DNA from: a virus
Direction: 5' to 3' (one strand)
Length of the DNA: 21,989 nucleotides
Virus record (IMG/VR): IMGVR_UViG_3300023116_003953
Location: 1-21,989 of that record
Shown: piece after piece, positions 2,660 through 16,718 of the stretch
Numbering within the stretch: position 1 is the stretch's first letter
Layout of the letters: every line of letters starts with the position of its first letter
Notes under the pieces: model-generated
The model's input: only the letters and a program-made list of their open reading frames with translations
Databases searched by the model: none
Told to the model about the DNA's origin: nothing
Made by a program: the position numbers and the translations under genes

Positions 2660-5600
2660 ATGGCAGGTTATACAAGACAGAGTGTTGCTGATATTATCGC
2701 AAATGCGGTTATTAAAGCTGCACCAGTAAACGCAGAATACAATGCTATTCGTGATGCATTCAATGCAAGCACAGGACACAAGCATGATGGTACATCTGCA
2801 GAGGGTGCTTACGTACCCACTATCTCTGATACAGACAACTACAACAAAGTAGTTATTGATGCTACCAACAACAGAATTAGTTTTTATAACGAAGTTTCTT
2901 CTGCTGCTGTAGAACAGATCAGACTAGAAGACGGTGTACTAAAACCTGTTACTGATGACGATGTTGACCTTGGTGCTACAGGTGCAGAGTTCAAAGATCT
3001 GTACATTGACGGTATTGGTTATATTGACTCTGTAGTTATTACAGGTGGTACTATTGACGATACTGTAATTGGTTCCACTACTGCTGCTGCGGGTACATTT
3101 ACTGACCTAACTTCTACTGGAACTTCTACCCATGCTACCGTAGATATTAATGGTGGCGCAATAGATGCAACTACAATTGGTGCAACAACTCCTGCTGCTG
3201 GTGATTTTACTGACGTAGGTTTAACGGGTAATTTAACTGTAACAGGTACATCTGCCCTTACAGGTACTACAACTATTACATCTGCTGATATTAACTCAGG
3301 TGCAATGGACAATACGACTATCGGTAATACAACTCCTGCTGCAGGTACGTTTACTACAGTAAACTCTTCAGGTGCTATGATTGCTACTGGTGGCTTTCAG
3401 GGTACTCTTACAGGTGCTGTAATTGGAGATGTAACTGGAGATCTAACAGGTAACGTAACAGGGAATGTAACAGGTAACCTAGATGGTATTATTGGTTCTT
3501 CTACCCCTGCTGCTGGTAGCTTTACAACTGTATCGACATCTGGACAAGCAACCTTGGCGACTGTTGATATTAACGGCGGTAGCATTGATGGTACTATTAT
3601 TGGAGCATCAACTGCTGCAGCTATAACAGGTACAACCATCACAGGTACAAGCCTTGTTGGACCAGTAACAGGTAATATTACAGGTAATGTTACTGGTAAT
3701 GTTACTGGTAATTTGACAGGGAATGTAACTGGTAACGTTACTGCAGCAAGTGGTACTTCCTCATTCACAGATGTGACCATCAACGGTACACTCAATATGA
3801 ATGCTGGCACTACAGCTACCATCACTAACCTGACTGCACCTTCTAATGACCTTGATGCTGCTACGAAAAAATACGTGGACGATGAAGTAGCTGCCCTTGT
3901 AGACTCTGCCCCAGGTACACTTGATACACTAAACGAGCTTGCTGCAGCATTAGGTGATGATGCAGACTTTGCAAACACAGTTACAACCAGCATAGCAACT
4001 AAGCTACCACTAGCAGGTGGTACAATGACTGGTGCTATTGCTATGGGTACATCTAAGATCACAGGTCTAGGTGATCCCACTGCAGCACAGGATGCAGTAA
4101 GTAAAAACTATGCTGACACTAGATTCTTAGCTCTGACTGGTGGAACCATGACAGGTTCCATTAATATGGGCAGTTCACCAATTACAACTACTCACACCCC
4201 AACTAATGCTGCTGACCTTACAACTAAAACATATGTAGATGGTATACTTGGTTCAGCTACTGCTGCAGCTACGAGTGCAACTAATGCAGCTACTTCAGAG
4301 ACTAATGCTGCTACAAGTGAAACTAACGCAGCTAACTCAGCTACTGCAGCAGCTACATCTGCAACCAATGCTGCAGCATCATACGATGATTTTGATGACA
4401 GGTACCTAGGTGCTAAAACTTCTGCTCCTACACTTGATAACGATGGTGATGCTCTTGTTTTAGGTGCATTATACTTTAATACTACAACAGACACTATGCA
4501 GGTCTATGGTTCATCTGGTTGGACTGCTGCAGGTTCATCTGTTAACGGTACAACTGATCGTAACACTTACACTGCTACATCAGGTCAAACTACATTTGCT
4601 GCTACGTATGATGCAGGATATGTAGACGTGTACTTGAATGGCGTAAAACTATTATTAGGAACAGACTTTACAGCAACGTCAGGAACTAGTATAGTTCTTA
4701 CAACAGGTGCTACTGCAGGTGATATTGTTGACATTGTAGCTTATGGTACATTTGTATTAGCAGATCACCTTACAGAAACGCAGTCTGATGCTCGTTACCT
4801 TCTAGAGTCAAACAACTTATCTGACCTAGATGATGCAGCTACAGCAAGAACAAACCTTGGTGTAGCTATTGGGACAGATGTTCAAGCCTATGATGCAACT
4901 ATCGTAGTTGATGCAGACATTGGAGTTACCGTCCAAGGCTATGATGTAAACACAGCTAAGTATGATGATACTACAGCTAACTTTACTGGAACACTACAAA
5001 ATGGTGGTAGCAACGTAGTTGTTGACTCTGATATTGGAAGTACTGTTCAGGCATACAATGCTAACCTAGCAGGAATCAACCAAGGTCTAGCAACAACAGA
5101 TAGTCCAAACTTCACTGCACTCAATGTAAATGGAACTGTCACGGCTGATGGGCTGACTGTGAGTTCTTCAGGTACATCTAATTCACTTACACTTACAAAA
5201 ACAGATGGCAATGCTGTAAAGCTAGTAGCTGGCAATACTGAGGGAACTCATACGTTTGAGTTTAACAACGGAGGTGTGTATCTCTCTGATACAACAGGGC
5301 TACGTTTAGGGCTATCATCAGACGGCGACATCAGCTTCTACGAGGACACAGGCACCACGGCAAAGTTCTTCTGGGATGCGAGTGCTGAGAGTTTGGGCAT
5401 TGGCACTACAAGTCCTTCAACAGCCCTTGATGTAAACGGTACAGTTAACGCCACAGCATTTACAGGTGATGGTTCAGGTCTTACTGGTGTTGGCTTTACA
5501 ACAAACGTAACTACTACAAATACTACAGCATCAAAAGATAACCATTACTACTTAAATGCTGCAGGTATTACACTAACACTTCCTGCATCTCCTAGTGTAG

Positions 5601-5764
5601 GTGACGAAGTAAGAATCTCTGAAGTAGGCGGTAACACTGATAACGTTATTGGTCGTAACGGATCTAACATCATGGGTACGGCAGACGACATTACTTTAGA
5701 TACCGCATACACAGTAATTTATTTAAGATATGTAGACGCAACTATTGGTTGGGCATTCTCGTAA
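2660..5764 (+). CDS. Long modular tail-fibre protein
   Basis: A 1034-residue, Cys-free, Thr/Gly/Ala-rich fibre. Residues 1-55 (MAGYTRQSVADII, later AIRDAFNASTGHKHDG) look like the short anchor domain of many marine phage fibres. Residues ~125-320 hold about five imperfect repeats around an IG-x-x-TPAAG-x-FT core, and ~256-361 hold tetrapeptide GNVT arrays. AGGTMTG fibre repeats are near 451 and 497, and an Ala-rich heptad coiled-coil lies at ~537-571. A beta domain containing YVDVYLNGVKLL is near 655, NLSDLDDAATARTNLG near 717, and a C-terminal domain (~950-1033) is duplicated in the small fibre at 7336. Probably a trimeric shaft with exchangeable modules that carries host recognition. A purine-rich GGGGGA 10 bases before the ATG serves as ribosome-binding site. 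Confidence 0.85.
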   Translation: MAGYTRQSVADIIANAVIKAAPVNAEYNAIRDAFNASTGHKHDGTSAEGAYVPTISDTDNYNKVVIDATNNRISFYNEVSSAAVEQIRLEDGVLKPVTDDDVDLGATGAEFKDLYIDGIGYIDSVVITGGTIDDTVIGSTTAAAGTFTDLTSTGTSTHATVDINGGAIDATTIGATTPAAGDFTDVGLTGNLTVTGTSALTGTTTITSADINSGAMDNTTIGNTTPAAGTFTTVNSSGAMIATGGFQGTLTGAVIGDVTGDLTGNVTGNVTGNLDGIIGSSTPAAGSFTTVSTSGQATLATVDINGGSIDGTIIGASTAAAITGTTITGTSLVGPVTGNITGNVTGNVTGNLTGNVTGNVTAASGTSSFTDVTINGTLNMNAGTTATITNLTAPSNDLDAATKKYVDDEVAALVDSAPGTLDTLNELAAALGDDADFANTVTTSIATKLPLAGGTMTGAIAMGTSKITGLGDPTAAQDAVSKNYADTRFLALTGGTMTGSINMGSSPITTTHTPTNAADLTTKTYVDGILGSATAAATSATNAATSETNAATSETNAANSATAAATSATNAAASYDDFDDRYLGAKTSAPTLDNDGDALVLGALYFNTTTDTMQVYGSSGWTAAGSSVNGTTDRNTYTATSGQTTFAATYDAGYVDVYLNGVKLLLGTDFTATSGTSIVLTTGATAGDIVDIVAYGTFVLADHLTETQSDARYLLESNNLSDLDDAATARTNLGVAIGTDVQAYDATIVVDADIGVTVQGYDVNTAKYDDTTANFTGTLQNGGSNVVVDSDIGSTVQAYNANLAGINQGLATTDSPNFTALNVNGTVTADGLTVSSSGTSNSLTLTKTDGNAVKLVAGNTEGTHTFEFNNGGVYLSDTTGLRLGLSSDGDISFYEDTGTTAKFFWDASAESLGIGTTSPSTALDVNGTVNATAFTGDGSGLTGVGFTTNVTTTNTTASKDNHYYLNAAGITLTLPASPSVGDEVRISEVGGNTDNVIGRNGSNIMGTADDITLDTAYTVIYLRYVDATIGWAFS
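3044..3630 (+). repeat. Degenerate ~30-50-residue shaft repeats (IG..TPAAG.FT)
   Basis: Within the long fibre, units starting near 3044, 3152, 3296, 3485 and 3575 share a Gly/Ile/Asp lead-in (GGxID), an IG-x-x-T-P/A-AAG core and an F-T-x-V/L end, often closing with VDING. The spacing varies because other beta modules are inserted between units. They look like stacked beta-structure shaft elements. Confidence 0.7.
3425..3484 (+). repeat. 12-bp tandem array 1 (GNVT-type, 5 units)
   Basis: Five consecutive in-frame 12-base units starting at 3425, 3437, 3449, 3461 and 3473 encode GDVT, GDLT, GNVT, GNVT and GNLD. The third codon positions differ between units, so the array is maintained at protein level rather than being a fresh slippage product. 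Confidence 0.85.
3671..3742 (+). repeat. 12-bp tandem array 2 (GNVT-type, 6 units)
   Basis: Six 12-base units starting at 3671 encode GNIT, GNVT, GNVT, GNLT, GNVT and GNVT. Units 2 and 3 are identical at DNA level (GGTAATGTTACT), which points to recent unit duplication or conversion. It probably extends a slender beta shaft; copy number may vary between relatives. Confidence 0.85.
4268..4372 (+). repeat. 21-bp heptad array encoding an Ala/Ser/Thr coiled-coil (5 units)
   Basis: Five contiguous heptads at 4268, 4289, 4310, 4331 and 4352 encode ATSATNA, ATSETNA, ATSETNA, ANSATAA and ATSATNA. Ala-rich heptads of this kind are common in phage side-tail fibres and are thought to form a thin trimeric coiled-coil between beta modules. 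Confidence 0.8.
5507..5761 (+). repeat. Duplicated fibre C-terminal domain, copy 1
   Basis: The last 85 residues of the long fibre contain ITLTLPASP, VGDEV, IGRNGSNIM and YVDATIGWA. The same blocks in the same order end the small fibre at 7828-8082, roughly 60% identical by eye. This type of domain, with a hydrophobic strand, a VGD turn and a terminal GW motif, is frequent near fibre tips. Confidence 0.85.
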
Positions 5765-5776
5765 GGAAAGATAAAC

Positions 5777-7321
5777 ATGGCAAATATTAGTTCATTCTTT
5801 GGTGGCTCAGGTGGTGGAGGAACTGCTGCAGACCCTACCCTAAATACTTACGGTGTTCCTCTTCCTCAGTACATAAAGTGCTACGCATACAAAGATACTT
5901 GTGTAGAAACTCAGGGGGTAAGTAGTGTTTGTTGTGGAGGCTTTATACAAGGTGGTATTGTTCCTTTACATGGAAATGCTTTTATGGCTTTAGCTGTTGA
6001 AATGGGTAGGTCATCAGATTCAGATTGTGGTAGACTTTATGCAAAAGCCTACTGTATTGATGACTCTACAGGAGATATTTACAGTGGACAAACTGCCTAT
6101 ACACTTGTTTTTACGAGTAACAGTAGTAATGCCAGAGTTGGTTATGAACAAAAACCAAGAGCTATAAGTGATGGTTGTAAAAATGTTTATGTTCCAATAG
6201 GTGACAATAGCCATGACAGACTTCTTAAAATTTGTGCTAACACAGTTGAAGGCCCATCTTCTATTGGAACTTCTACCATTTGTGCATCAGTAGCAACTAA
6301 TAGCACACTTACTTACAGTGGAGATGTAGGTACAGTTGTTTGGCAATCTAGATCTGACCACCCAAGTTGTGCTTGTATTATTCGTATTACAAATGGAAGT
6401 GTTGCTTTCTGTAATAGTCTAGGTTTTGACAACTGTAATATTAGATGTGGTAGTTCAGGTGGAACTCCAAGCTGTGCATATATGTGTGCTTTAAATACTG
6501 ACTATATTTTGCAAGTTGGTTACTGTAACTCTAGTAATTGTTATTGTACAAGATCTAGACAATATCTTTGGAACCCTGCTAACTCATCCTACAACGTAGA
6601 TGCTTGCAGTCATGGCTCTACTGATTATGTAAGTTCTCAGGCTTGGAGTAAAACACTATCATGTAACTTTAATGTTCCTGGTATTTTACAAAGAGCAATA
6701 AGAATGGGTCCAGGATTTTATTCACCTGGTCAAAATGCAGCTTGGTTTAATTTAAATCAACCAACTTTATGTGATTACTTTACAGAAGAAAGAGTGTGTT
6801 TTTGTACAGGTTGTGGGTACACCCATAATCAAAAACTATATTTTAACCCTACAGGCACTTGGAATATAGAAGCAGATTTTCATAATGGGTGTTTGTCAGG
6901 AAGTAAGACTGACTGTAACAGTATGAAGGGAGTTCAAAAAATTAACGTAACTCCTACCCCAGGGGCTTGTTGGGAGCCATCTTCGTTTTTAATTCAAGCA
7001 AATGGCGTTAGATCCTCTGGATTATTTAGCTATGCAAGAGGAAAATGCACTGACTGTGAATTTAGACAAAATATGTTTACTTCATTTGAAGTTGAACAAG
7101 ACATTTCTAAATTATCATCTTACACACAAATACCAATTTTTTCTTATGGAAACCCAAATAGTTGTAGGCTATTTACCAATGAACCTGCCATAAATAATTT
7201 AGGCTCTGCTGTTGTTGGTAAAAAGTGGGTTGTATCAATGGAAACTTCAAGAACTGGAACATGTGAGTGTATTGCTGTGCACTCTTATAAGATTATGACC
7301 AACTCATGTACAGCAGATTAA
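5777..7321 (+). CDS. Cysteine-rich putative tail-tip/adhesin protein 1
   Basis: A 514-residue protein with about 34 Cys (near 6.6%), encoded mostly by TGT, spread over the whole chain as single Cys, CxC (CAC, CYC, CFC, CEC) and one CC. It begins with a short hydrophobic stretch and a Gly-rich linker (SSFFGGSGGGG), then Ser/Asn/Thr/Gly-rich beta-like sequence. No signal peptide, membrane helix or enzyme motif is visible, and I do not recognise the family. It sits between two fibre genes that share a tip domain and has a good ribosome-binding site (AAGGAAAG), so it is very likely a virion or host-recognition protein. The cysteines could form disulfides after release from the cell or bind metal; the sequence alone does not decide. 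Confidence 0.7.
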   Translation: MANISSFFGGSGGGGTAADPTLNTYGVPLPQYIKCYAYKDTCVETQGVSSVCCGGFIQGGIVPLHGNAFMALAVEMGRSSDSDCGRLYAKAYCIDDSTGDIYSGQTAYTLVFTSNSSNARVGYEQKPRAISDGCKNVYVPIGDNSHDRLLKICANTVEGPSSIGTSTICASVATNSTLTYSGDVGTVVWQSRSDHPSCACIIRITNGSVAFCNSLGFDNCNIRCGSSGGTPSCAYMCALNTDYILQVGYCNSSNCYCTRSRQYLWNPANSSYNVDACSHGSTDYVSSQAWSKTLSCNFNVPGILQRAIRMGPGFYSPGQNAAWFNLNQPTLCDYFTEERVCFCTGCGYTHNQKLYFNPTGTWNIEADFHNGCLSGSKTDCNSMKGVQKINVTPTPGACWEPSSFLIQANGVRSSGLFSYARGKCTDCEFRQNMFTSFEVEQDISKLSSYTQIPIFSYGNPNSCRLFTNEPAINNLGSAVVGKKWVVSMETSRTGTCECIAVHSYKIMTNSCTAD

Positions 7322-7335
7322 TAGGGGAATAACAA

Positions 7336-8085
7336 ATGAGTAAAGCAAGAGATTTAGCAGACTTAATTGCTGCAGGTAATCCCCTAGCAGATGGGACTGT
7401 TGAGGTTGCTGACATCAGTGACCTTACAGCTACTGCAACAGAATTGAACTACGTAGATGGTGTTACAAGTGCAGTACAAACACAGATAGATACAAAAGCT
7501 CCTACAGCAAACCCTACTTTTACTGGAACCGTTACTTCTCCTACAGTTAATGCTTCAACAGAACTTCAGATAGGTGGGACTGCCATTACAGCTACTGCTG
7601 CTGAATTGAACTACGTAGATGGTGTTACATCTAATGTTCAAACACAACTTGATGCAAAGCAAGCTGCTTCTACTGCTGTTACTACATCAACTACTTTTGG
7701 CGGAGATGTCAGTGGTACTTACGATGCTCTTGTTATTGCAGACGACAGTCATAATCACACCATCTCAAACGTTGATAACCTGCAGACAACACTAGATGCT
7801 AAACAAGAGGAGTTTACTCCTAACGAAGTAACTACTTCTACTACAGCATCTGCAGACAATAGATATTTTCTTAACGGAGCTACTATTACTCTGACATTAC
7901 CTGCTTCTCCTACGGTAGGGGATACAGTTGCTATTACAGAGATTGGTGGTAACGCAGACAACATTATAGGACGTAATGGATCTAACATTATGAGCCTAGC
8001 AGAGGACATGACTGTTGATGCAGCTTATGCTTCGTTCCAGTTACAATACGTAGATGCTACCATTGGTTGGGCTATAGCACATTAA
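7336..8085 (+). CDS. Small tail-fibre protein sharing the long fibre's C-terminal domain
   Basis: A 249-residue, Cys-free fibre. The N-terminus (MSKARDLADLIAAGNPLADG) resembles the short attachment region of other marine phage fibres. Two copies of the block ATELNYVDGVTS followed by VQTQ appear at residues ~34-56 and ~91-113, a fibre repeat widespread in such phages. A central region containing GGDVSGTYDALVI leads to the C-terminal domain also present at 5507-5761. AGGGGA lies 9 bases before the ATG. Placed between the two cysteine-rich genes, it may be the stalk or adaptor for the second one. Confidence 0.8.
   Translation: MSKARDLADLIAAGNPLADGTVEVADISDLTATATELNYVDGVTSAVQTQIDTKAPTANPTFTGTVTSPTVNASTELQIGGTAITATAAELNYVDGVTSNVQTQLDAKQAASTAVTTSTTFGGDVSGTYDALVIADDSHNHTISNVDNLQTTLDAKQEEFTPNEVTTSTTASADNRYFLNGATITLTLPASPTVGDTVAITEIGGNADNIIGRNGSNIMSLAEDMTVDAAYASFQLQYVDATIGWAIAH
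7828..8082 (+). repeat. Duplicated fibre C-terminal domain, copy 2
   Basis: Eighty-five residues with the same ordered blocks as 5507-5761 (ITLTLPASP, VGD, IGRNGSNIM, YVDATIGWA). DNA similarity is clear but third positions have diverged, so the duplication or exchange is not recent. Confidence 0.85.
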
Positions 8086-8097
8086 AGAGGGATTAAT

Positions 8098-10737
8098 ATG
8101 AGTACATATTCAACATATGCAGCTTCTGGTGGCGGTGGTCTAACAGGTGGATCTTACTGTTGTATCTGTGCTGCAAACTACCAGATTACTGCTGATAATT
8201 GGGACGACAAAGTAACTCTTGTTTGTTTTTGTGGTAATCCTTCAAGTGCTTCCCTTTGTATGCCTAACGCAACTACACTGGACCCAGGAGCTAATTTATA
8301 CACTATTAAAAATGGTGGTTCTGCAACTACTATTGTAGCTAGAGATGCTGCCTCAAATATTCTTGGTATTATTAAACCTTGTAATACTAGTACATTTTCT
8401 CTGGTAACTAATGGAGATTGTACAGGTCAATGGTCTTTACAGAACTACACAGACAGTCTTGGTGCAGTACAAACATCTAGTGCTTCTTCAACATTTAAAC
8501 CTAAAGATTTCTGTTGTTCCTACTCAAATGAGTGTGGAGATAAACTTTACGTTATTACTGCTTGTAAAGAACAGTGCTACTACGAAGCACACACTTTTTG
8601 CACAACAGAAACTGGTGTTAGCTTAATCAACACTTTAGAGGTTGTTACATGTGCAGGGTGTAATGACAACTCTTGTGCATACCCTTTAAAAGATGGTTGG
8701 TTAATCGTAGATGGATTTTATTGTAACTGTCAAGGTACTTCAGGAACAAATGTAGGTGCTTTTGACTGTGGTACTAAATTTAGATTTGTTACTATAAACT
8801 GTGAAGGAACTTGTGCCACTTGTTGTATTGTATGTAGTTTTACAGGAACTGGGCCTACTACTGGATGTAATATACATTATTGTAATACTGGTGTAAAATT
8901 TATGTCACCAGGTGGCATGAACTATTTTGGGTTTTTAGGAACTTTTGGGGTACCTACAGCTAACAGCTTGCCTTTTGATCTTATAGCAGAAGTTTGGTGT
9001 TCTAATACTTGTACTACTGGTGCCCCTAATCTTTGTAGAAAGTACCAAGCTTATTGTTGTATCCCTATTAATTACCCAGGTACTGAGATTCCTTGCTTTA
9101 TACACCCTAACGGATTTATTATTAAACCTGGATCTAACAAAACTTCAGGACATAACCACGTCTTTTTTGCAAATGGAAGTAGTGTCTCAAGTCCAGGATT
9201 TTGGGCAGTTAAGGTATGTAATGATGTGGTAACAGCAGGTTTTAGTAAATGTGGTGATGCAACAAATAGTGTTCTTAACTGTTACAAAGCTCTGGGCCTA
9301 AATGCTACAGGACTATCTGCTATGGGTGGTTGTGTAGATAGTCAACTTATAGATGGTAAAAATTCTATTAGTGGTAGTAGCACAGGTTACTATGTTTGTG
9401 ATCACCCTGTTTTTGGAGCCACAGGATACTCATCTTCTCAGACTAGGTACTACGGTTTGCAAAGTATGTGTTGGAGTGGAAGCACACCTTGCCATTATTT
9501 TGCTTATCATTGTAATGGAACTAGAACCTTTCTACCACCTTCTGGTGCATCTGAAAATAGGTTTGCCTTTTTTAAATTTGTTACTCCTCGTATAGGATTA
9601 ATATCTCCTAACTGGTGCTATTGCCAAAGTTTAGCAGGTGTTTATGGTCAGTGTATGACTGGACCAATGCTTTGTTTATGTTGTATCGAAGAATATTTTG
9701 ATTTGTGTTGCGTATGTAAAAACATTTTTGATACATGCTGCAGTGACTTTACACCAGTATTTGGTGTTCAAAATAGATATCATACTCCTTTAGAAAAGTA
9801 CTATGACTACCATGATCCTCATAATGCTTATTCACAATTTTCAGGAAATAGTTTTTGGTCTAAAAAATGTGGTAGAACAGGGATATATTATACAGAAGGT
9901 AAAGGATATCTTCAATTCCCTAGACTGGAATGGTCTGGAAATAACCCAATAGAGTGTATTGGAGAATCTTGCTTTATTTTTTGGAAACCTCAAAATTGTA
10001 CTACAACATGTGCAGAGTTAGCTCAGGTTATTGTAAGTCCAACAAGTATAACTTATGGATGTAGATTCTGCTTTAGCACTTCGTGTTCTTTACCAAATAG
10101 TACAGGGTGTTGTGCCTGTTGGGGAATTACTTACTGTAGTCATGGTCAGTCACCTATGTATAGTAAAGTAGATACAAGTTACATTTGTATATTCTGGCCT
10201 AATGGACAATCCTACAGAATTTGTAGAAATTGTTCAAGTGGTACTTTTATTGCAATGGATTCTTGCGAACAACCTACTGGGTTTACTAGTTCTGCTTACC
10301 CATTTGATCAGGCAAAAATATATAGCACTTGTCATGGAAGATTTGTTTCTAGCCTTTGTTTATCTTGTTGTAACCACGATACTCTACATAAACCTATTTA
10401 TTGGAATTTTACATCTTACCCAGGATCTATTTGTAGAGATACTACCGCAGAGACACCAGGTGGTTCTTGTAGACAAAGTCATGCATCTTATGATCCTGAT
10501 AGTTGTAGGTACATTTCTATACACAATCCATGTAGTTGCTTTGGATCTTTAAATGGATCTGTTGTTGTAGGAATACTTGATCCTGCTACTCAAACAAGTC
10601 AAATTACAACTTCTCAGTTTGCAGAGGCAAGGGGAATAGGATCATGCTATTTACTAGATTCTGCTAGATTGCAAAGCTTTACAGAATACCCACCTAATAT
10701 AGAGGCAAAAGCCTTTACTACCACAAAGAGATTATAA
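8098..10737 (+). CDS. Extremely cysteine-rich large putative tail-tip/adhesin protein 2
   Basis: An 879-residue protein with about 78 Cys (near 9%), with about nine CC pairs, eight CxC and several CxxC. A dense cluster at residues ~526-547 holds eight Cys in 22 residues. The N-terminus is Gly-rich (YAASGGGGLTGG) like the other Cys-rich protein. Residues ~28-118 look like the same class of beta domain found at fibre ends (TLDPGANLYTIKNGG, then TNGDCTGQWSLQN), here with Cys at positions where I would expect Leu, Gly or Ala. This supports the frame and a fibre-related role. The remainder is Ser/Thr/Asn/Gly/Tyr-rich with no recognised domain or signal peptide. AGAGGG precedes the ATG, and TAATG couples it to the chaperone gene. 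Likely the main receptor-binding protein, by inference from position. Confidence 0.7.
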   Translation: MSTYSTYAASGGGGLTGGSYCCICAANYQITADNWDDKVTLVCFCGNPSSASLCMPNATTLDPGANLYTIKNGGSATTIVARDAASNILGIIKPCNTSTFSLVTNGDCTGQWSLQNYTDSLGAVQTSSASSTFKPKDFCCSYSNECGDKLYVITACKEQCYYEAHTFCTTETGVSLINTLEVVTCAGCNDNSCAYPLKDGWLIVDGFYCNCQGTSGTNVGAFDCGTKFRFVTINCEGTCATCCIVCSFTGTGPTTGCNIHYCNTGVKFMSPGGMNYFGFLGTFGVPTANSLPFDLIAEVWCSNTCTTGAPNLCRKYQAYCCIPINYPGTEIPCFIHPNGFIIKPGSNKTSGHNHVFFANGSSVSSPGFWAVKVCNDVVTAGFSKCGDATNSVLNCYKALGLNATGLSAMGGCVDSQLIDGKNSISGSSTGYYVCDHPVFGATGYSSSQTRYYGLQSMCWSGSTPCHYFAYHCNGTRTFLPPSGASENRFAFFKFVTPRIGLISPNWCYCQSLAGVYGQCMTGPMLCLCCIEEYFDLCCVCKNIFDTCCSDFTPVFGVQNRYHTPLEKYYDYHDPHNAYSQFSGNSFWSKKCGRTGIYYTEGKGYLQFPRLEWSGNNPIECIGESCFIFWKPQNCTTTCAELAQVIVSPTSITYGCRFCFSTSCSLPNSTGCCACWGITYCSHGQSPMYSKVDTSYICIFWPNGQSYRICRNCSSGTFIAMDSCEQPTGFTSSAYPFDQAKIYSTCHGRFVSSLCLSCCNHDTLHKPIYWNFTSYPGSICRDTTAETPGGSCRQSHASYDPDSCRYISIHNPCSCFGSLNGSVVVGILDPATQTSQITTSQFAEARGIGSCYLLDSARLQSFTEYPPNIEAKAFTTTKRL

Positions 10738-11165
10738 TGAAAATTTATTTAAAACTTGAAGATAAAGTAGTAAAAAGTGTTCATTTAAGTCCTGTAGGTC
10801 TTGATGAAAACGATGGGCCAGTTACTATTCAAATGTATGACTGGGATGATGAAAGTGACCATGACTACAATTCTGAAAACTTTTCTAATCTTGTACCAGA
10901 GTTTTGTACTTTAGAAGGTCGTCTATTTATGACTATGGATTTCATAGATGAAGCAGAACGTACTAAAGCTCTAGAAGATCAGTGGACTATCTTAAGATCT
11001 TTAAGAAATATTCTTCTACAAGAATCTGACTGGACACAGTTAGCAGATGTTACACTAACGGAAGAAAAACAAACTTCTTGGAATACATATAGACAAGAAT
11101 TAAGGGATTTACCAAATACTCTATTTACTCCTTTTGTTTATGAATTTCCAACTAAACCTTCTTGA
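10737..11165 (+). CDS. Tail-fibre assembly chaperone (Phage_tail_APC-like)
   Basis: A 142-residue acidic protein. The C-terminal half carries the arrangement typical of phage tail assembly chaperones: RSLRNILLQESDWTQLADV, then a Lys/Gln helix and YRQELRDLP (residues ~86-127). Such proteins help fold or attach the adhesin encoded just upstream, and the one-base overlap (TAATG) with the 879-residue gene indicates which partner it serves. The N-terminal ~70 residues are probably a small partner-specific domain. Its last codons overlap the -35 element of the promoter for the sugar cassette. Confidence 0.8.
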   Translation: MKIYLKLEDKVVKSVHLSPVGLDENDGPVTIQMYDWDDESDHDYNSENFSNLVPEFCTLEGRLFMTMDFIDEAERTKALEDQWTILRSLRNILLQESDWTQLADVTLTEEKQTSWNTYRQELRDLPNTLFTPFVYEFPTKPS

Positions 11166-11234: not shown

Positions 11235-12161
11235 GTGAAAAAACTGTTTATGATTGACGGAGGTGCAGGTCGTGCTATTGCAGCTATCCCTGCCCTCATT
11301 AAATACGCAAAGAAGAATGATGACTTTGCAATACTAGTACATGGTTGGGATACACTATACTGGGGTATTTCTGAACTACAAGACAAAACCTTTAACCCTG
11401 AACAAAAGGGTATCTTTGAGCAGGTTGTGTCTAAGGCTGAAGAAATTATATCTCCTGAGCCATATCGAGTACCAGGTTACTTTAAACAAGAGAAGTCTTT
11501 GGCAGAAGCTTTTGACTACTTGATTAACAACACACATGATCATTCTGATCTAGGTGTTCCTGTTCTTAAGACTTCCAAGATGGAAGAGATTAACGCAGCA
11601 GGAATGTACTTAGATGTAAAGAACCAGCAGCAGAAACAAAAGAATATTGTTCTACAACCCTTTGGTCGTTCTGCTCAGAAACATCCTACTGGTGTTGTTG
11701 TTGATGAGTCATCTCGTTCTCTTGACCCCCAATCGTACCTAAAGCTAGTTAAAAAACTTAGCACTAAGTACAACCTAGTTCTTATGGCAGAGCCAGACTT
11801 CCATCTGCCAGACGACACCTACACCGTGAAGCCACAGGCAGACCTAAGAATGTGGACTGCTTTTATTGGTTCAGCAGATTATTTTGTTGGTGTAGACTCA
11901 GTTGGTCAGCACATGGCTAGGGCATTAGGCACACCTGGAACAGTTATTGTTGGTTCTACGTTTGCTATCAACACAACTTACCCAGACTATTTTAACATCG
12001 TAGAAAAGAAGGATGCTAAGAAGTACTCACCTATTCGTATTTCAGGTCTTGAGAGTCACCTAGCTGATAGAGCTAACGACACACTCATGGACTTTAGTGA
12101 TGAAGAGATCAATGCAATGTATAACAACATTGTCAAAGACATTGAGAAAAAGGTGAAGTAA
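11235..12161 (+). CDS. Family 9 glycosyltransferase (heptosyltransferase-like)
   Basis: A 308-residue GT-B fold protein that probably transfers heptose from ADP-heptose in the cytoplasm. The start is a GTG at 11235 preceded by AAGAAAG; the next ATG (11250) would cut the first beta-strand, KKLFMIDGGAGRAI. The C-terminal domain has the GT9 signature: a GSADYFVGVDS segment with D221, H226 in QHMARALGTPG and GS near 240, matching the nucleotide-sugar site of LPS heptosyltransferases. The N-terminal acceptor half is divergent, as expected if the acceptor is unusual. It contains no Cys, so it lacks the iron finger of TibC-type autotransporter heptosyltransferases. It opens the operon and couples through TAATG to the carbamoyltransferase. 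Family is confident; donor sugar is inferred from the neighbouring ADP-heptose genes. Confidence 0.75.
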   Translation: MKKLFMIDGGAGRAIAAIPALIKYAKKNDDFAILVHGWDTLYWGISELQDKTFNPEQKGIFEQVVSKAEEIISPEPYRVPGYFKQEKSLAEAFDYLINNTHDHSDLGVPVLKTSKMEEINAAGMYLDVKNQQQKQKNIVLQPFGRSAQKHPTGVVVDESSRSLDPQSYLKLVKKLSTKYNLVLMAEPDFHLPDDTYTVKPQADLRMWTAFIGSADYFVGVDSVGQHMARALGTPGTVIVGSTFAINTTYPDYFNIVEKKDAKKYSPIRISGLESHLADRANDTLMDFSDEEINAMYNNIVKDIEKKVK

Positions 12162-13864
12162 TGAATATCTTAGCAATCAACCCAGGACACAATGGGTCTG
12201 CTGCTCTACTGGTAGATGGTGACCTAAAGTTCTACATTGAAGAAGAACGTCTGTCTCGTAGTAAGTATGATGGAAATCCCTTCAAAGGTATGATGGAAGC
12301 ACTACGTTACGGCGTAGATATCTTAGTTCTTGGTGGTACCCACGAAGAATTTCCTAGACTACCTTGGACTGGTGAAGATCCTTATTCTGGTTTCCTTCGT
12401 AAGTTTAATCCTAACCTACAAGTTATTAACGTAGGTAGTGCACACCATATAGGACATGCAGCAGGTGCTTTCTACAACTCAGGGTTTGATGAAGCTGCAG
12501 CAGTTATCGTAGATGGATCTGGTACTCGTAGAGAGATTGACATAAACGGTGAGTTTAAAAACCCAGGTTTTGAAACAGAGTCTATCTTTAATTGTGATTA
12601 CGAAGAAGGCATTAAACCTGTCTTTGCTTCTTACGGTGGTAACTATGACACACAACGTGTTATCAGTGAAGATACAGAAATGGATAGTGCAATCACACTA
12701 GTGAAAGCATACGAAGCTGTGTCAGAATACCTTGGTTTTGGTTTTATTGAAGCAGGTAAGACTATGGGTCTTGCACCCTACGGAAAAGAAAACGAATTTA
12801 TACCTAGTCTTTTCTTTAATGGCAGAGGAAACAAAAACGTATTTGTTCCAAATTACCCTGCAGGTGCTCACGTAGACCACAGCAGACATCCTTTTTTAGA
12901 ATTAAAAGAAGATCCTCGTGCTTGGCACAAAGACCCTAGTAAGGTGACAGATGCTGCTAAAGATTTAGCTTGGGCTGTACAAGATGAAACCCAAACTCTT
13001 GTTGGTGATTTGATTGAGAAAGCTGTAGACAAGACAGGACAAAAGAATATTGTAATTGCAGGAGGCTACGGACTAAACTGTGTAGCCAATTACTATTACA
13101 AGAAACGTTTCCCTGACCTTAATATCTACGTTGATCCTATTTCACATGATGGTGGTACAGCCATTGGTTTAGCACAGCTAATATATTATGATCAAACAAA
13201 AGACACTGAGAAACGTCCACTAAGTACATTGTACCTTGGCCCTGAACGTACTGAAAACTATGATCTAGAAGGGTACGACACAAAGGATGTTACCCCTGCT
13301 GATGTAGCCAAGCTGATTGCTGAGAAGAACATTGTTACTTTGTTCCAAGGTAGATCAGAGGCAGGGCCAAGAGCACTAGGTAATCGTTCTATTCTGTACG
13401 ATCCCACAGATCCTAACGGTAAGGACACAGTGAACAAGGTCAAAGGACGTGAGTGGTTTAGACCATTTGCAGGGTCAATGCTCAAGGAATACTTTGAGGA
13501 ATGGTTTGACACATACGGAATGGAAGAGACACCATTCATGATGTATGCAATGGACTTCAAGACTGAGAAGCATGGTGAAGTTCCTGCTATCACACACGTA
13601 GATGGTACATGTCGTATTCAGACTGTAACCAGAGAGCAGAACGAAGCCTATTACGATCTGATTGAAGAGTTCCGTAAGATCACTGGTGTACCAATCCTGT
13701 TCAATACAAGCTTTAACCTAGCAGGTGAACCACTTGTAGAAACACTAGAGGATGCACTACACACCATGAAGAACTGTGACATTGACTACATGTACCTACC
13801 AGAAGTAGGGAAGCTTGTTACGGTAGCTTCTGAGCAAACTGAAGAAGATTCTCAAACACCTTAG
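12161..13864 (+). CDS. O-carbamoyltransferase (NodU/CmcH family)
   Basis: A 567-residue protein of the usual family length with both domains. The Kae1-like N-terminal part starts MNILAINPGHNGSAALL, has the metal-binding HHIGHAAGAF at residues 95-104 (H95, H96, H99), then KTMGLAPYG and AGGYGLNCVAN. The C-terminal domain (from ~352) has GRSEAGPRALGNRSIL at ~397, a REWFRPFAGSML block and PILFNTSFNLAGEP. These enzymes use carbamoyl phosphate and ATP to form carbamoyl-AMP and place a carbamoyl group on a sugar hydroxyl. Beside heptose genes, the likely acceptor is a heptose or heptose-containing glycan (7-O-carbamoyl-heptose is known in Pseudomonas LPS core). AAGGTGA precedes the ATG. The last 47 bases overlap the reverse-strand gmhB end. 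Confidence 0.9.
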   Translation: MNILAINPGHNGSAALLVDGDLKFYIEEERLSRSKYDGNPFKGMMEALRYGVDILVLGGTHEEFPRLPWTGEDPYSGFLRKFNPNLQVINVGSAHHIGHAAGAFYNSGFDEAAAVIVDGSGTRREIDINGEFKNPGFETESIFNCDYEEGIKPVFASYGGNYDTQRVISEDTEMDSAITLVKAYEAVSEYLGFGFIEAGKTMGLAPYGKENEFIPSLFFNGRGNKNVFVPNYPAGAHVDHSRHPFLELKEDPRAWHKDPSKVTDAAKDLAWAVQDETQTLVGDLIEKAVDKTGQKNIVIAGGYGLNCVANYYYKKRFPDLNIYVDPISHDGGTAIGLAQLIYYDQTKDTEKRPLSTLYLGPERTENYDLEGYDTKDVTPADVAKLIAEKNIVTLFQGRSEAGPRALGNRSILYDPTDPNGKDTVNKVKGREWFRPFAGSMLKEYFEEWFDTYGMEETPFMMYAMDFKTEKHGEVPAITHVDGTCRIQTVTREQNEAYYDLIEEFRKITGVPILFNTSFNLAGEPLVETLEDALHTMKNCDIDYMYLPEVGKLVTVASEQTEEDSQTP

Positions 13865-14465
13865 TCTTCTTTCTTAATTTCTCCTTAGAGAACTTTTGAA
13901 GATCTTTTTCAGTAGCTACCCCATGACCAGTACGTACTAAGATTGGGGTAGCACCAATACGTTCTGCAGCTTTAAGGTCTGTGATCTTATCACCTACGTA
14001 GAACCCTTTATCTTTAAATCTAATTTTGTTGTTGAATATTTCTTTCTCAGTACGATGAAACATCCCAATATTAGGTTTAGCATAGTAGTCTTCTTTCAGG
14101 GATGACTCAGAATAAAACAAACCATCAATGGAGTAGATACCTGCATTGCCAAACACCTCAAACATACGTTGATGAATGGCTTCTACCTGTGCATGTGTCT
14201 GCTCTTTCTTTATAATACCGCCTTGGTTAGTTAGAATAACTACTTTGTAGCCTTTTAGCCTAAGCATACGAATAGCTTCCAGTGAACCAGGGATAGGCTC
14301 CCAGTCGTCAGGATCAGTAAGATAGTGTCCTCTGTCTATGTTGATGACACCATCACGATCTAAACCAACAATAGATTTAGGGAACACAGTAGGCCAATCA
14401 GAGGGTAGGTTTTGTTGTTGAACTTGTTGTGGGTCTTGTTCTATGATATGCTTAAATCTGGACAT
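13818..14465 (-). CDS. gmhB: D-glycero-D-manno-heptose-1,7-bisphosphate phosphatase-like HAD protein
   Basis: A 215-residue HAD-IIIA phosphatase that removes the 1- or 7-phosphate in nucleotide-heptose synthesis. HAD motif I is GLDRDGVIN (D36 nucleophile, D38 acid), motif II ILTNQGG, a Lys lies in the AKPNIGMF segment, and motif IV is VGDKITDLKAA. A ~25-residue Gln-rich N-terminal extension precedes motif I. The zinc-binding Cys/His loop of typical GmhB, just before the KP-x-x-GM segment, is replaced by YSESSLKEDYYAKP with no Cys. The start is firm: AAGGAG (14471-14476) lies 5 bases upstream. It is the only reverse-strand gene seen, converging with and overlapping the carbamoyltransferase and diverging 29 bases from the adenylyltransferase. 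Histidinol-phosphatase-type activity is a possible alternative. Confidence 0.8.
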   Translation of the reverse strand: MSRFKHIIEQDPQQVQQQNLPSDWPTVFPKSIVGLDRDGVINIDRGHYLTDPDDWEPIPGSLEAIRMLRLKGYKVVILTNQGGIIKKEQTHAQVEAIHQRMFEVFGNAGIYSIDGLFYSESSLKEDYYAKPNIGMFHRTEKEIFNNKIRFKDKGFYVGDKITDLKAAERIGATPILVRTGHGVATEKDLQKFSKEKLRKKTKVFENLLQFAQKLP

Positions 14466-14470
14466 AACAA

Positions 14471-14476
14471 CTCCTT
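14471..14476 (-). promoter_or_regulatory. Ribosome-binding site of gmhB
   Basis: On the reverse strand the bases read AAGGAG, five bases before the ATG at 14465-14463. This is one of the best Shine-Dalgarno matches in the window and shows the reverse-strand gene is meant to be translated. Confidence 0.75.
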
Positions 14477-14494
14477 TTTAACAGGATAATACAC

Positions 14495-14905
14495 ATGAAG
14501 AAAGTATTTGTCAATGGAGCCTTTGATGTAATACATTCTGGACACCTTGATCTTATTGAATTTGCAGGGATGTTAGGTGGTCATTTACTCGTAGCTATTG
14601 ACACAGACAGTAAAATAAGGTATAACAAGGGAGCAGATAGACCTTTTAACAATCTGAAAAATCGGAAGCATCTGATGTCAATGTTGAAGCCTGTTAATGC
14701 TGTTGTGTCGTTTGATTCAGATGAAGACTTGGCAGCTATTATTAAGAGGTATGAACCTGATGTTATGGTGAAAGGTTCCGATTGGAGGGGGAAGAAGATT
14801 GTTGGTGAGGAATACTGTAAAGAGGTAGTATTCTTTGAGAGGACCAATAATGAATCAACAACAAAAACCCTCCAAGATTTTGTTGATAGGAGACGGATGC
14901 TATGA
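14495..14905 (+). CDS. hldE: Stand-alone D-glycero-beta-D-manno-heptose-1-phosphate adenylyltransferase (HldE C-domain-like)
   Basis: A 136-residue cytidylyltransferase-fold protein matching the C-terminal domain of HldE/RfaE, which uses ATP to make ADP-glycero-manno-heptose. The nucleotide-binding motif is GAFDVIHSGH with H14-S-G-H17, followed by ADRPFN, VVSFDSDEDLA, VKGSDW (bacterial HldE has KGGDY) and a terminal ESTTKT in place of the usual STT-N-I. The symbol refers to this domain only; the kinase domain is a separate gene downstream. AGGA lies 8 bases upstream of the ATG. The last 56 bases overlap the kinase gene in another frame, so the two are probably translationally coupled. Other small adenylyl- or cytidylyltransferases share the HxGH fold, but the neighbours favour heptose. 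Confidence 0.85.
   Translation: MKKVFVNGAFDVIHSGHLDLIEFAGMLGGHLLVAIDTDSKIRYNKGADRPFNNLKNRKHLMSMLKPVNAVVSFDSDEDLAAIIKRYEPDVMVKGSDWRGKKIVGEEYCKEVVFFERTNNESTTKTLQDFVDRRRML
14837..14843 (+). promoter_or_regulatory. Ribosome-binding site fixing the kinase start
   Basis: GAGAGGA lies six bases before the ATG at 14850, inside the coding sequence of the adenylyltransferase. It decides against the in-frame TTG at 14835, which would place the Shine-Dalgarno inside the gene. Confidence 0.65.
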
Positions 14906-15605
14906 CGAGTACTGTTATGGTGTCGTAAACAGGCTAAACCCAGAGGCACCAGTACCAGTACTAGATTGGGATACCACTGTTCGTAAGTTAGGAATGGCTG
15001 GTAATGTGCTACAAAACTTTCAAGCACTTGGTGTAGATTGTCACTATGACATTCTATATAAAGAAACAAAGAAACGTTACATAGACTCAAAGACTGGTCA
15101 ACAGATTGTAAGAGTTGATGTACCTCTAATAGAAGAAGAACATGATGAGCATCGGTTACACAACTTTAGTGATTATGATGCTGTCGTTATCTCTGATTAC
15201 AATAAAGGTTATGTCTCCACTTTTGCCATCCAAAGTATCTTAGAGAGTTACAACGGTCCAGTATTTATTGATACAAAGAAGCAAGACTTAAAACTATTTA
15301 ATAAAGCTTTTGTAAAGATAAATCAGTACGAGTATGAAAATAGAACATCTGATGCAAACAACATGATTGTTACGTTTGGGTCAGAAAAAGTCGTCTACAA
15401 GGATAAACTATACTTACCACCAAAAGTAGATGCACATGATGTTTGTGGGGCAGGAGACACCTTTTTAGCAGCTTTGGTGTACAACTACCTACAAACAGAC
15501 AGTATAGAAAAAGCTATTAAGTTTGCTATGAAAGCTGCTGCGGTAACTGTTCAACATGTCGGTGTGTATGCACCTCGTTTAGAGGAGATACAACATGCGG
15601 CTTAA
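14850..15605 (+). CDS. hldE: Stand-alone D-beta-D-heptose-7-phosphate kinase (HldE N-domain-like, PfkB family)
   Basis: A 251-residue ribokinase-fold enzyme matching the N-terminal half of HldE, which phosphorylates heptose-7-phosphate at O1. Key blocks are GDGCYDEYCYG, RLNPEAPVPVLDW (HldE has RISPEAPVPV), a GMAGNV substrate/lid motif in place of GGAANV, VISDYNKG, and the PfkB signature DVCGAGDTF with catalytic D203. It is shorter than the ~318-residue bacterial domain, mainly because the region after GMAGNV (part of the lid) is reduced. The ATG at 14850 is chosen over an upstream TTG at 14835 because GAGAGGA precedes it with suitable spacing and the protein then starts like its relatives. 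It overlaps the adenylyltransferase by 56 bases and the cupin gene by 11. Confidence 0.85.
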   Translation: MNQQQKPSKILLIGDGCYDEYCYGVVNRLNPEAPVPVLDWDTTVRKLGMAGNVLQNFQALGVDCHYDILYKETKKRYIDSKTGQQIVRVDVPLIEEEHDEHRLHNFSDYDAVVISDYNKGYVSTFAIQSILESYNGPVFIDTKKQDLKLFNKAFVKINQYEYENRTSDANNMIVTFGSEKVVYKDKLYLPPKVDAHDVCGAGDTFLAALVYNYLQTDSIEKAIKFAMKAAAVTVQHVGVYAPRLEEIQHAA

Positions 15606-15951
15606 TGGACATGTTAAAAAGGGTTGGGGGTCAGAACTGATATGGGCAACCAACGACAAGTATTGTGGTAAGTTTTTACATTTTAACGAGGGTGCTAAAT
15701 TTTCTATGCACTTTCACAGAGAGAAAGATGAGACTTGGTATGTCCTTAAGGGAAAATTTAAAGTTATCTATATTGATACAAAAGACGCAAGCACTCATGA
15801 AAAGACTCTTACAGCTGGTGATACGTGGCGTAACGAACCTCTGGTCCCGCATCAAATCATTTGTGAAACGGAAGGGACAGTAATCGAGGTATCTACTCCT
15901 GACTCGGTAGAAGATAACTATCGTGTAGGTCGAGGAGATAGCCAAAGATGA
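15595..15951 (+). CDS. Single-domain cupin, possible sugar-phosphate isomerase or epimerase
   Basis: A 118-residue cupin. Motif 1 fits the classic G-x5-H-x-H-x4-E-x6-G spacing exactly (GAKFSMHFHREKDE through LKG), giving His, His and Glu metal ligands. Motif 2 is GDTWRNEPLVPHQ with the fourth His. The overall look (GWGSELIWATNDKYCGK start; VIEVSTPDSVEDNYRVGR end) resembles small mannose-6-phosphate isomerase-like cupins in polysaccharide clusters. It overlaps the kinase by 11 bases and HldD by 4, with its own AGGAGA, so it belongs to the heptose operon. Its substrate is unknown. Because no GmhA gene is present, an aldose-ketose isomerase role is worth testing, but this is inference. Confidence 0.7.
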   Translation: MRLNGHVKKGWGSELIWATNDKYCGKFLHFNEGAKFSMHFHREKDETWYVLKGKFKVIYIDTKDASTHEKTLTAGDTWRNEPLVPHQIICETEGTVIEVSTPDSVEDNYRVGRGDSQR

Positions 15952-16718
15952 AAATACTAGTTACTGGAAGTAATGGGTTCATTGGTCAAAACATGGTCAA
16001 TGCACTTGAGCCACACCACGAGGTAGTTAAAAACGAATGGGGTATGTCGTTTCCCAAAGTAAAAGGGTTAGATTGGGTAATACACTTAGGGGCTATTAGC
16101 TCTACTACTGAGACAAATATCTCTCGTATATACAGACAGAATGTAGAGTTTTCTATTAAGTTGTATGAAGAGTGTATTAAACATAACGTTAAGTTTCAGT
16201 TTGCCTCCAGTGCTTCAGTTTACGGATTAAAGTCAGACTTCAAGGAGACATCTCCTATTGCTCCTCAGAACCATTATGCTCGTAGTAAGGCACTGTTTGA
16301 AAAGTATATAGAGCTTAGAAATGCTGATATCACTACTCAGATATTTAGATACTTCAACGTACATGGCCCCCACGAGGAACACAAAGGAAACCAAGCAAGT
16401 CCATTTACCAAGTTTATGTTCCAAGCTAAAACAACTGGTAAAATAAAACTGTTCGAAGGTTCTTCTAAGTATTTTAGAGACTTTATTCACGTAGGGAAAG
16501 TTGTCATGGACCACCAAAGATTTTTTGATGTAGGCGAGTCTGGTATATGGAACTTTGGAACAGGTAAAGCTCGTAGCTTCTACGATGTAGCCCTAGAGGT
16601 CTCAGGTAAGACTGGTGCAACTATAGAGTTTATTGATTTTCCAGATAATCTAAAAGGTAATTATCAAGAGTTTACTAAAGCAGACACATCAAAGCTTATA
16701 AAAACTCTGACATTGTAA
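15948..16718 (+). CDS. hldD: ADP-L-glycero-D-manno-heptose 6-epimerase (HldD)
   Basis: A 256-residue short-chain epimerase that converts ADP-D,D-heptose to ADP-L,D-heptose using bound NADP. The N-terminal GSNGFIG is the dinucleotide-binding motif. HldD-specific blocks follow: LGAISSTTE (E. coli GACSSTTE), FASSASVYG, NHYARSK with Y110 and K114, RYFNVHGPHEEHKG, LFEGSSKYFRDFIHVG, WNFGTGKARSF and the end block IEFIDFPDNLKGNYQEFTKAD. It is ~54 residues shorter than the E. coli enzyme (310), missing an N-terminal loop and the last ~35 residues after QEFTKAD. GAGGAGA precedes the start, which overlaps the cupin stop (ATGA). It is the last gene of the sugar cassette. Confidence 0.9.
   Translation: MKILVTGSNGFIGQNMVNALEPHHEVVKNEWGMSFPKVKGLDWVIHLGAISSTTETNISRIYRQNVEFSIKLYEECIKHNVKFQFASSASVYGLKSDFKETSPIAPQNHYARSKALFEKYIELRNADITTQIFRYFNVHGPHEEHKGNQASPFTKFMFQAKTTGKIKLFEGSSKYFRDFIHVGKVVMDHQRFFDVGESGIWNFGTGKARSFYDVALEVSGKTGATIEFIDFPDNLKGNYQEFTKADTSKLIKTLTL

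Follow-up and report, generated by a model that had tools for sequence, protein, structure and literature searches.

The window analyzed here, the whole stretch of 21,989 nt of virus record IMGVR_UViG_3300023116_003953 (IMG/VR), harbors two genes for extraordinarily cysteine-rich tail proteins, CysA and CysB, and just downstream a gene for a GT9-like glycosyltransferase (GT9 in the following). With a probability of about two in three, this phage S-glycosylates, probably S-heptosylates, the Cys residues of its tail adhesins, as judged from sequence comparisons and a structure model. CysA and CysB would be tail-tip adhesins with many outward-facing Cys thiols, to which the phage's own GT9 would attach S-linked sugars. 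The most likely donor would be ADP-heptose, produced with the help of the GmhB-, HldE-, and HldD-like enzymes encoded next to GT9, and the carbamoyltransferase beside them may carbamoylate the sugar. Once modified, the fibers would become part of the virion and serve in host adsorption. A preliminary description of this DNA had missed the linked GT9 and ADP-heptose-type cassette at 11235-16718, which points to S-glycosylation. From the Cys content and conservation, the linkage to GT9, the fold of the GT9 model, and the absence of an Asp base, all of which were observed, we infer Cys as the acceptor, heptose as the sugar, the virion location, and the role as adhesins.

Two Cysteine-Rich Proteins among Tail Genes

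5777-7321, plus strand: cysteine-rich tail protein A (CysA), 514 aa, 34 Cys, with a Gly-rich N-terminal anchor; homologs in contigs L103, L107, and L114
8098-10737, plus strand: cysteine-rich tail protein B (CysB), 879 aa, 78 Cys; ortholog in contig L065; 11-member cluster

Both open reading frames (ORFs) are open, and Cys makes up 6.6% of CysA and 8.9% of CysB. Our recount agreed exactly with the Cys numbers of the preliminary description, including the single Cys in the 3,002 residues of four neighboring proteins (main fiber, 1034 aa, 0 Cys; hub-like protein, 512 aa, 1 Cys; small protein, 249 aa, 0 Cys; internal protein, 1207 aa, 0 Cys). Reassignment of TGT and TGC was weighed as well and dismissed, as the neighboring proteins hardly use these codons. 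The Cys-rich proteins are not an assembly artefact either, since near-identical copies of CysA and CysB (99%-100% identity) occur in two further IMG/VR contigs from different metagenomes and comparable proteins are present in isolated phages.

The Gly-rich N-terminus shared by both proteins and their location in the receptor-recognition block, with a chaperone gene directly following, had been described before and were seen again. No credible relative was found when CysA and CysB were searched against PHROG, Pfam, PDB, and GenBank phage sequences. The tail fiber of PX29 was matched with E=0.3 only, which is not credible. The PHROG and Pfam searches recognized no fiber domain in either protein. 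Homologs of CysA share about 31%-34% identity. An AlphaFold model of CysA built with four sequences had a pLDDT of 28 and was not interpretable for Cys-Cys distances.

The neighboring tail genes are as follows:

2660-5764, plus strand: main tail fiber, Cys-free (PHROG tail fiber; 0 Cys)
7336-8085, plus strand: Cys-free small fiber-like protein between the two Cys-rich genes (PHROG virion and tail matches; conserved in L065 and L076)
10737-11165, plus strand: tail assembly chaperone after CysB (Phage_tail_APC, PF16778, E=6.7e-16)

The phage is of the HMO-2011 type, and its tail protein encoded at 1121-2659 is 85% identical to the counterpart in Roseobacter phage CRP-1. PHROGs label this conserved protein "amidase", and some records call it "dimodular nonribosomal peptide synthetase"; its position among tail genes suits neither name. 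The equivalent region of CRP-1, CRP-2, CRP-9, CRP-13, and HMO-2011 contains no Cys-rich ORF of the CysA/CysB kind. On a GT9-negative contig (L119, position 10379), a 411-aa ORF has a similar Gly-rich N-terminal anchor (MSNLSTFFGGSSSSGGG) and only 1.9% Cys, which suggests that distal domains are swapped on one anchor.

Cysteine-Rich ORFs Are Linked to GT9

HMO-2011-type contigs were retrieved with the tail gene, GT9, or the small protein as bait; Cys content played no part in their selection. When only contigs with at least 8 kb past the conserved tail gene were counted and the duplicate L100 (the same contig as L065) was removed, Cys-rich ORFs were present in 10/10 unique GT9-positive contigs and in 0/16 GT9-negative contigs, which gives a value of about 2e-7.

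We also searched for GT9 homologs in isolated phages, with adjoining Cys-rich proteins predicted beforehand. T4-like cyanophages bore this out. In P-SSM2, S-SSM7, S-CAM1, S-CAM3, Sf-FS3, and three single-cell marine viruses, GT9 is immediately preceded by one to three ORFs with 7.6%-11.6% Cys. S-BM3 and the Pelagibacter phage Mosig have the same fiber neighbor without the GT9 cassette and without Cys-rich ORFs. The GT9-linked analogs carry the tail fiber domains Peptidase_S74 and Phage_Tail_Tip. Tail proteins adjacent to GT9 in Aeromonas phage HJ05 (4.1% Cys) and in the Vibrio phages K479 (2.4%) and SBP1 (4.4%) showed the same direction as the marine phages at a weaker level. No cassette gene besides GT9 was found in these three phages, and when IMG/VR was scanned for Vibrio-type GT9, only the known one of SBP1 appeared. 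Vibrio/Aeromonas-type hosts make ADP-heptose for their lipopolysaccharide (LPS). The presence of the heptose pathway in HMO-2011-type and T4-like marine phages and its absence from the Vibrio/Aeromonas phages fit the proposed use of ADP-heptose, because such hosts supply it themselves.

In a wide IMG/VR scan for GT9, an ORF with at least 5% Cys was located upstream of GT9 in 59 of the 75 loci with enough upstream sequence, compared to 2 of 91 GT9-negative loci, where both ORFs were short; the loci behind these counts were not de-duplicated. A Cys-linked GT9 was usually accompanied by carbamoyltransferase and ADP-heptose genes. The GT9/Cys-rich module was also seen on contigs (L281-L287) in GTDB genomes labeled Woesearchaeota, Euryarchaeota, Actinomycetota, and others; these look like phage contigs binned into metagenome-assembled genomes.

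Phages are known to carry glycosyltransferases that modify their host, and the cassette could serve to remodel a host glycan for superinfection exclusion or receptor masking, with the Cys-rich neighborhood being due to co-transfer only. We regard this as very unlikely, since GT9 pairs with many sequence-unrelated Cys-rich proteins in several phage groups and the S74 chaperone part of the fibers is spared of Cys (see below).

Conservation and Position of the Cysteines

Surveys using the neighboring genes yielded Cys-rich ORFs of 200 aa or more, 43 of them distinct, which BLAST grouped into 14 clusters. After reduction at 45% identity and addition of cyanophage members, the non-redundant set comprised 35 proteins with 6%-12% Cys and more than 1,700 Cys residues; many of these proteins are mutually unrelated in sequence. 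In 21 related pairs (55%-92% identity), Cys was the best-conserved residue type (87.7%, compared to 80.5% for Gly), and N, T, S, and A were its commonest replacements. The ortholog of CysB on L065 is 76% identical and keeps 69 of the 78 Cys; further relatives of CysB are more distant. The preliminary description had named homologs with non-conserved Cys, together with absence of the proteins from virions, as an outcome that would refute its reading; Cys instead proved highly conserved.

The preliminary description had reported CC, CxC, and CxxC motifs throughout both proteins. Within CysA and CysB these motifs were not in excess over shuffled sequences, but the 35-protein set showed a mild enrichment of CC (1.44-fold) and CxC (1.32-fold) over expectation. 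CxxC reached only 1.14-fold, and the set showed no periodicity of Cys. Metal-binding tips, put forward earlier with reference to the Ferrojan Horse idea and here taken to include iron, zinc, or copper, would suit the many thiols and the marine setting. With no enriched CxxC framework, no periodicity, and no reason for the linkage to GT9, this is the least probable of the alternatives and is disfavored.

The position of the Cys residues was evaluated in beta-roll-like repeats (NTTGxNNIAIG) of freshwater relatives. In 133 such repeats Cys was found at variable positions flanking the core, with 11%-26% at each main position, whereas the conserved core positions had 0 Cys. In 21 control beta-roll repeats 0 Cys were counted. 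In the non-redundant set, residues two positions away from a Cys were more hydrophilic than residues one position away (difference -0.27 ± 0.07), and I, L, and V behaved in the opposite way. This strand-face test thus gave the pattern that outward-facing strand positions would show. Three such fibers end in an S74 endosialidase-type chaperone, a part that is normally cleaved off. These ends have 0/113, 0/107, and 2/105 Cys, compared to 5.5%-6.2% Cys in the sequence before them.

The strongest rival of S-glycosylation is disulfide armor, which had also been suggested in the preliminary description. The thiols would remain unpaired as long as the cytoplasm keeps them reduced; after lysis they would cross-link and harden the adhesin, and the cassette would place its sugars on another target or on residues other than Cys. 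The high conservation of Cys and the mild enrichment of CC and CxC are in line with this, and to go by the repeats, Cys residues on adjacent beta-roll turns could in principle pair. Nevertheless, disulfide armor does not predict the linkage to GT9, and the beta-roll positions are filled irregularly. The odd number of Cys in 17 of the 35 proteins is mildly against it, as is the turnover between CysB and its L065 ortholog, in which Cys was lost at 9 positions and gained at 5 (both odd numbers), with frequent exchanges to Q, K, D, E, or N. Together with the replacement by N, T, S, or A and the outward-facing pattern, this leaves disulfide armor less supported than S-glycosylation, and we consider it unlikely.

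The GT9-Like Glycosyltransferase

11235-12161, plus strand: GT9-like (heptosyltransferase-fold) glycosyltransferase, candidate Cys-modifying enzyme (PF01075 in 13/15 homologs; AlphaFold pLDDT 93; Arg13 for the catalytic Asp)

The full-length structural matches of the GT9 model were GT-B enzymes of family GT9, with Z values of 23.8 for 3tov, 21.4 for WaaF, 20.8 for the protein heptosyltransferase TibC (4rap; 263 residues, root-mean-square deviation 2.9), and 19.5 for WaaC; the GT-A fold of the glycocin GT2 enzymes was not found. A previous hhalign comparison with WaaC/WaaF, covering the C-terminal part only with 70% probability, was superseded by the model. All 40 phage GT9 proteins covering the region have Arg at the position of Asp13 of WaaC, where WaaC and WaaF have Asp; Arg13 was matched to Asp13 by the GxPAL motif in an ungapped register of the sequences and by the ranges of the full-length structural alignments. 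Asp110 of TibC is the presumed catalytic base, as deduced from superposition on WaaC and MurG (PMC4358343). Since a thiol needs less assistance by a base than a hydroxyl, Arg in place of Asp fits a Cys acceptor, and it is plausible from sequence and model that the missing Asp base suits a thiol.

The window GT9 has no Cys and thus lacks the four-Cys iron finger of TibC, and residue 1 of the model aligns at residue 97 of TibC, leaving no N-terminal beta-barrel before the catalytic domain. Because iron finger and barrel are absent, the phage GT9, as modeled, is not a member of the bacterial autotransporter heptosyltransferase (BAHT) family, although it may work in a BAHT-like manner. An enzyme of this kind could heptosylate Ser or Thr, and the Cys residues of these adhesins would then serve another purpose. 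The TibC-like fold is compatible with this, and BAHT enzymes act on Ser (PMC4358343). Against it, the Asp base is missing, and the Cys-rich set contains less Thr, Ala, Asp, and Ser than its counterparts in CRP phages that lack GT9. We therefore hold heptosylation of Ser/Thr to be clearly unlikely, more so than disulfide armor.

The Sugar Cassette Downstream of GT9

12161-13864, plus strand: NodU/TobZ-type carbamoyltransferase (PF16861, PF02543; PDB TobZ, E=2e-51)
13818-14465, minus strand: GmhB-like heptose bisphosphate phosphatase (NF006506, E=4e-38, below cut-off)
14495-14905, plus strand: HldE-C-like heptose-1-phosphate adenylyltransferase (TIGR02199, E=2e-29, below cut-off)
14835-15605, plus strand: HldE-N-like heptose-7-phosphate kinase (TIGR02198, E=2e-35, below cut-off)
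15595-15951, plus strand: sugar-type cupin (PF07883)
15948-16718, plus strand: HldD-like ADP-heptose epimerase (TIGR02197, E=5.5e-64, below cut-off)

These matches strongly suggest an ADP-heptose pathway. A search of control genomes for the HldE family carries no information, since paralogs match almost everywhere. The cupin (window 15595-15951; P-SSM2, L189, 24355-24711) is called "cysteine dioxygenase" in cyanophages; it matches Cupin_2 and weakly sugar isomerases, so the label is probably wrong and could mislead beside Cys-rich genes. The S-SSM7 cassette (L190, 21175-31435) additionally comprises a second carbamoyltransferase, a tryptophan halogenase, and 2-oxoglutarate (2OG)-Fe(II) oxygenases. 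Freshwater GT9 loci (L255, 9639-10457; L242, 2964-3758; L247, 2074-2982 and 5115-5762) encode sulfotransferases (PF13469/PF00685), a GT1-type glycosyltransferase, and an FkbM methyltransferase, which suggests that the glycan is larger there and may bear sulfate and methyl groups.

Several observations weigh against S-heptosylation. No sequon was found around the Cys residues of the 35 proteins. Of the 75 GT9 loci, 16 have no Cys-rich ORF in view; several of these are cut off too early or belong to large freshwater phages that have a number of fiber genes, but L255 (over 7 kb) and some others are clearly Cys-poor near GT9. Because the GT9 genes share a common ancestor, the phage lineages do not count as fully independent cases, and the pairing in Vibrio/Aeromonas phages (2.4%-4.4% Cys) is the weaker one. 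The window GT9 itself is below the Pfam cut-off, the heptose names are taken from matches below curated cut-offs, and Arg13 was matched to Asp13 by sequence register and alignment ranges.

Relation to Known Systems and Significance

The BAHT enzymes TibC and Aah, which modify the adhesins TibA and AIDA-I, resemble the proposed phage system in the GT9-like GT-B fold, the ADP-heptose donor (inferred for the phage), and the many sites on a repeat-rich adhesin. They differ in being bacterial and in using Ser as acceptor instead of the proposed Cys, and their Asp110, iron finger, and barrel are absent from the phage enzyme. The LPS heptosyltransferases WaaC/WaaF with the GmhB, HldE, and HldD pathway share the fold and the cassette enzymes, but the phage GT9 is far below the family cut-offs (best TIGR02201, 23.7 bits with a cut-off of 170.2), has Arg13 for Asp13, and lies outside any LPS locus. 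Glycocin S-glycosyltransferases such as SunS of sublancin, which are GT2 enzymes with GT-A fold, attach a sugar to the Cys sulfur at one or two sites of a small peptide. The sulfur linkage is also proposed for the phage, whose enzyme, unlike SunS, has the GT-B fold and dozens of candidate sites. Phage-encoded glycosylation of virions does occur, e.g., in mycobacteriophages, where phage enzymes decorate virion proteins, but we know of no case with a Cys-rich acceptor or a heptose cassette. In a literature search of limited range, neither Cys-rich nor S-glycosylated phage tails were found described.

In a wider form, which we favor slightly less than S-glycosylation in this phage, GT9 without the Asp base (Arg13) would be part of a portable virus-encoded S-glycosylation system of HMO-2011-type, T4-like, N4-like, and freshwater phages. 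It would add sugars, probably heptose, to tens of Cys on unrelated fiber folds, whose Cys content would have evolved as a scaffold for glycan display.

If true, this would be, as far as known to us, the first S-linked glycosylation of virion proteins, and it would explain the existence of these very Cys-rich large phage proteins. GT9 would then represent a candidate enzyme family for putting many sugars on Cys, and the finding suggests that such fibers could go unnoticed when virion proteomes are analyzed by ordinary peptide searches. The simple sequence signature of GT9 and a Cys-rich fiber makes cultured phages such as P-SSM2 directly testable.

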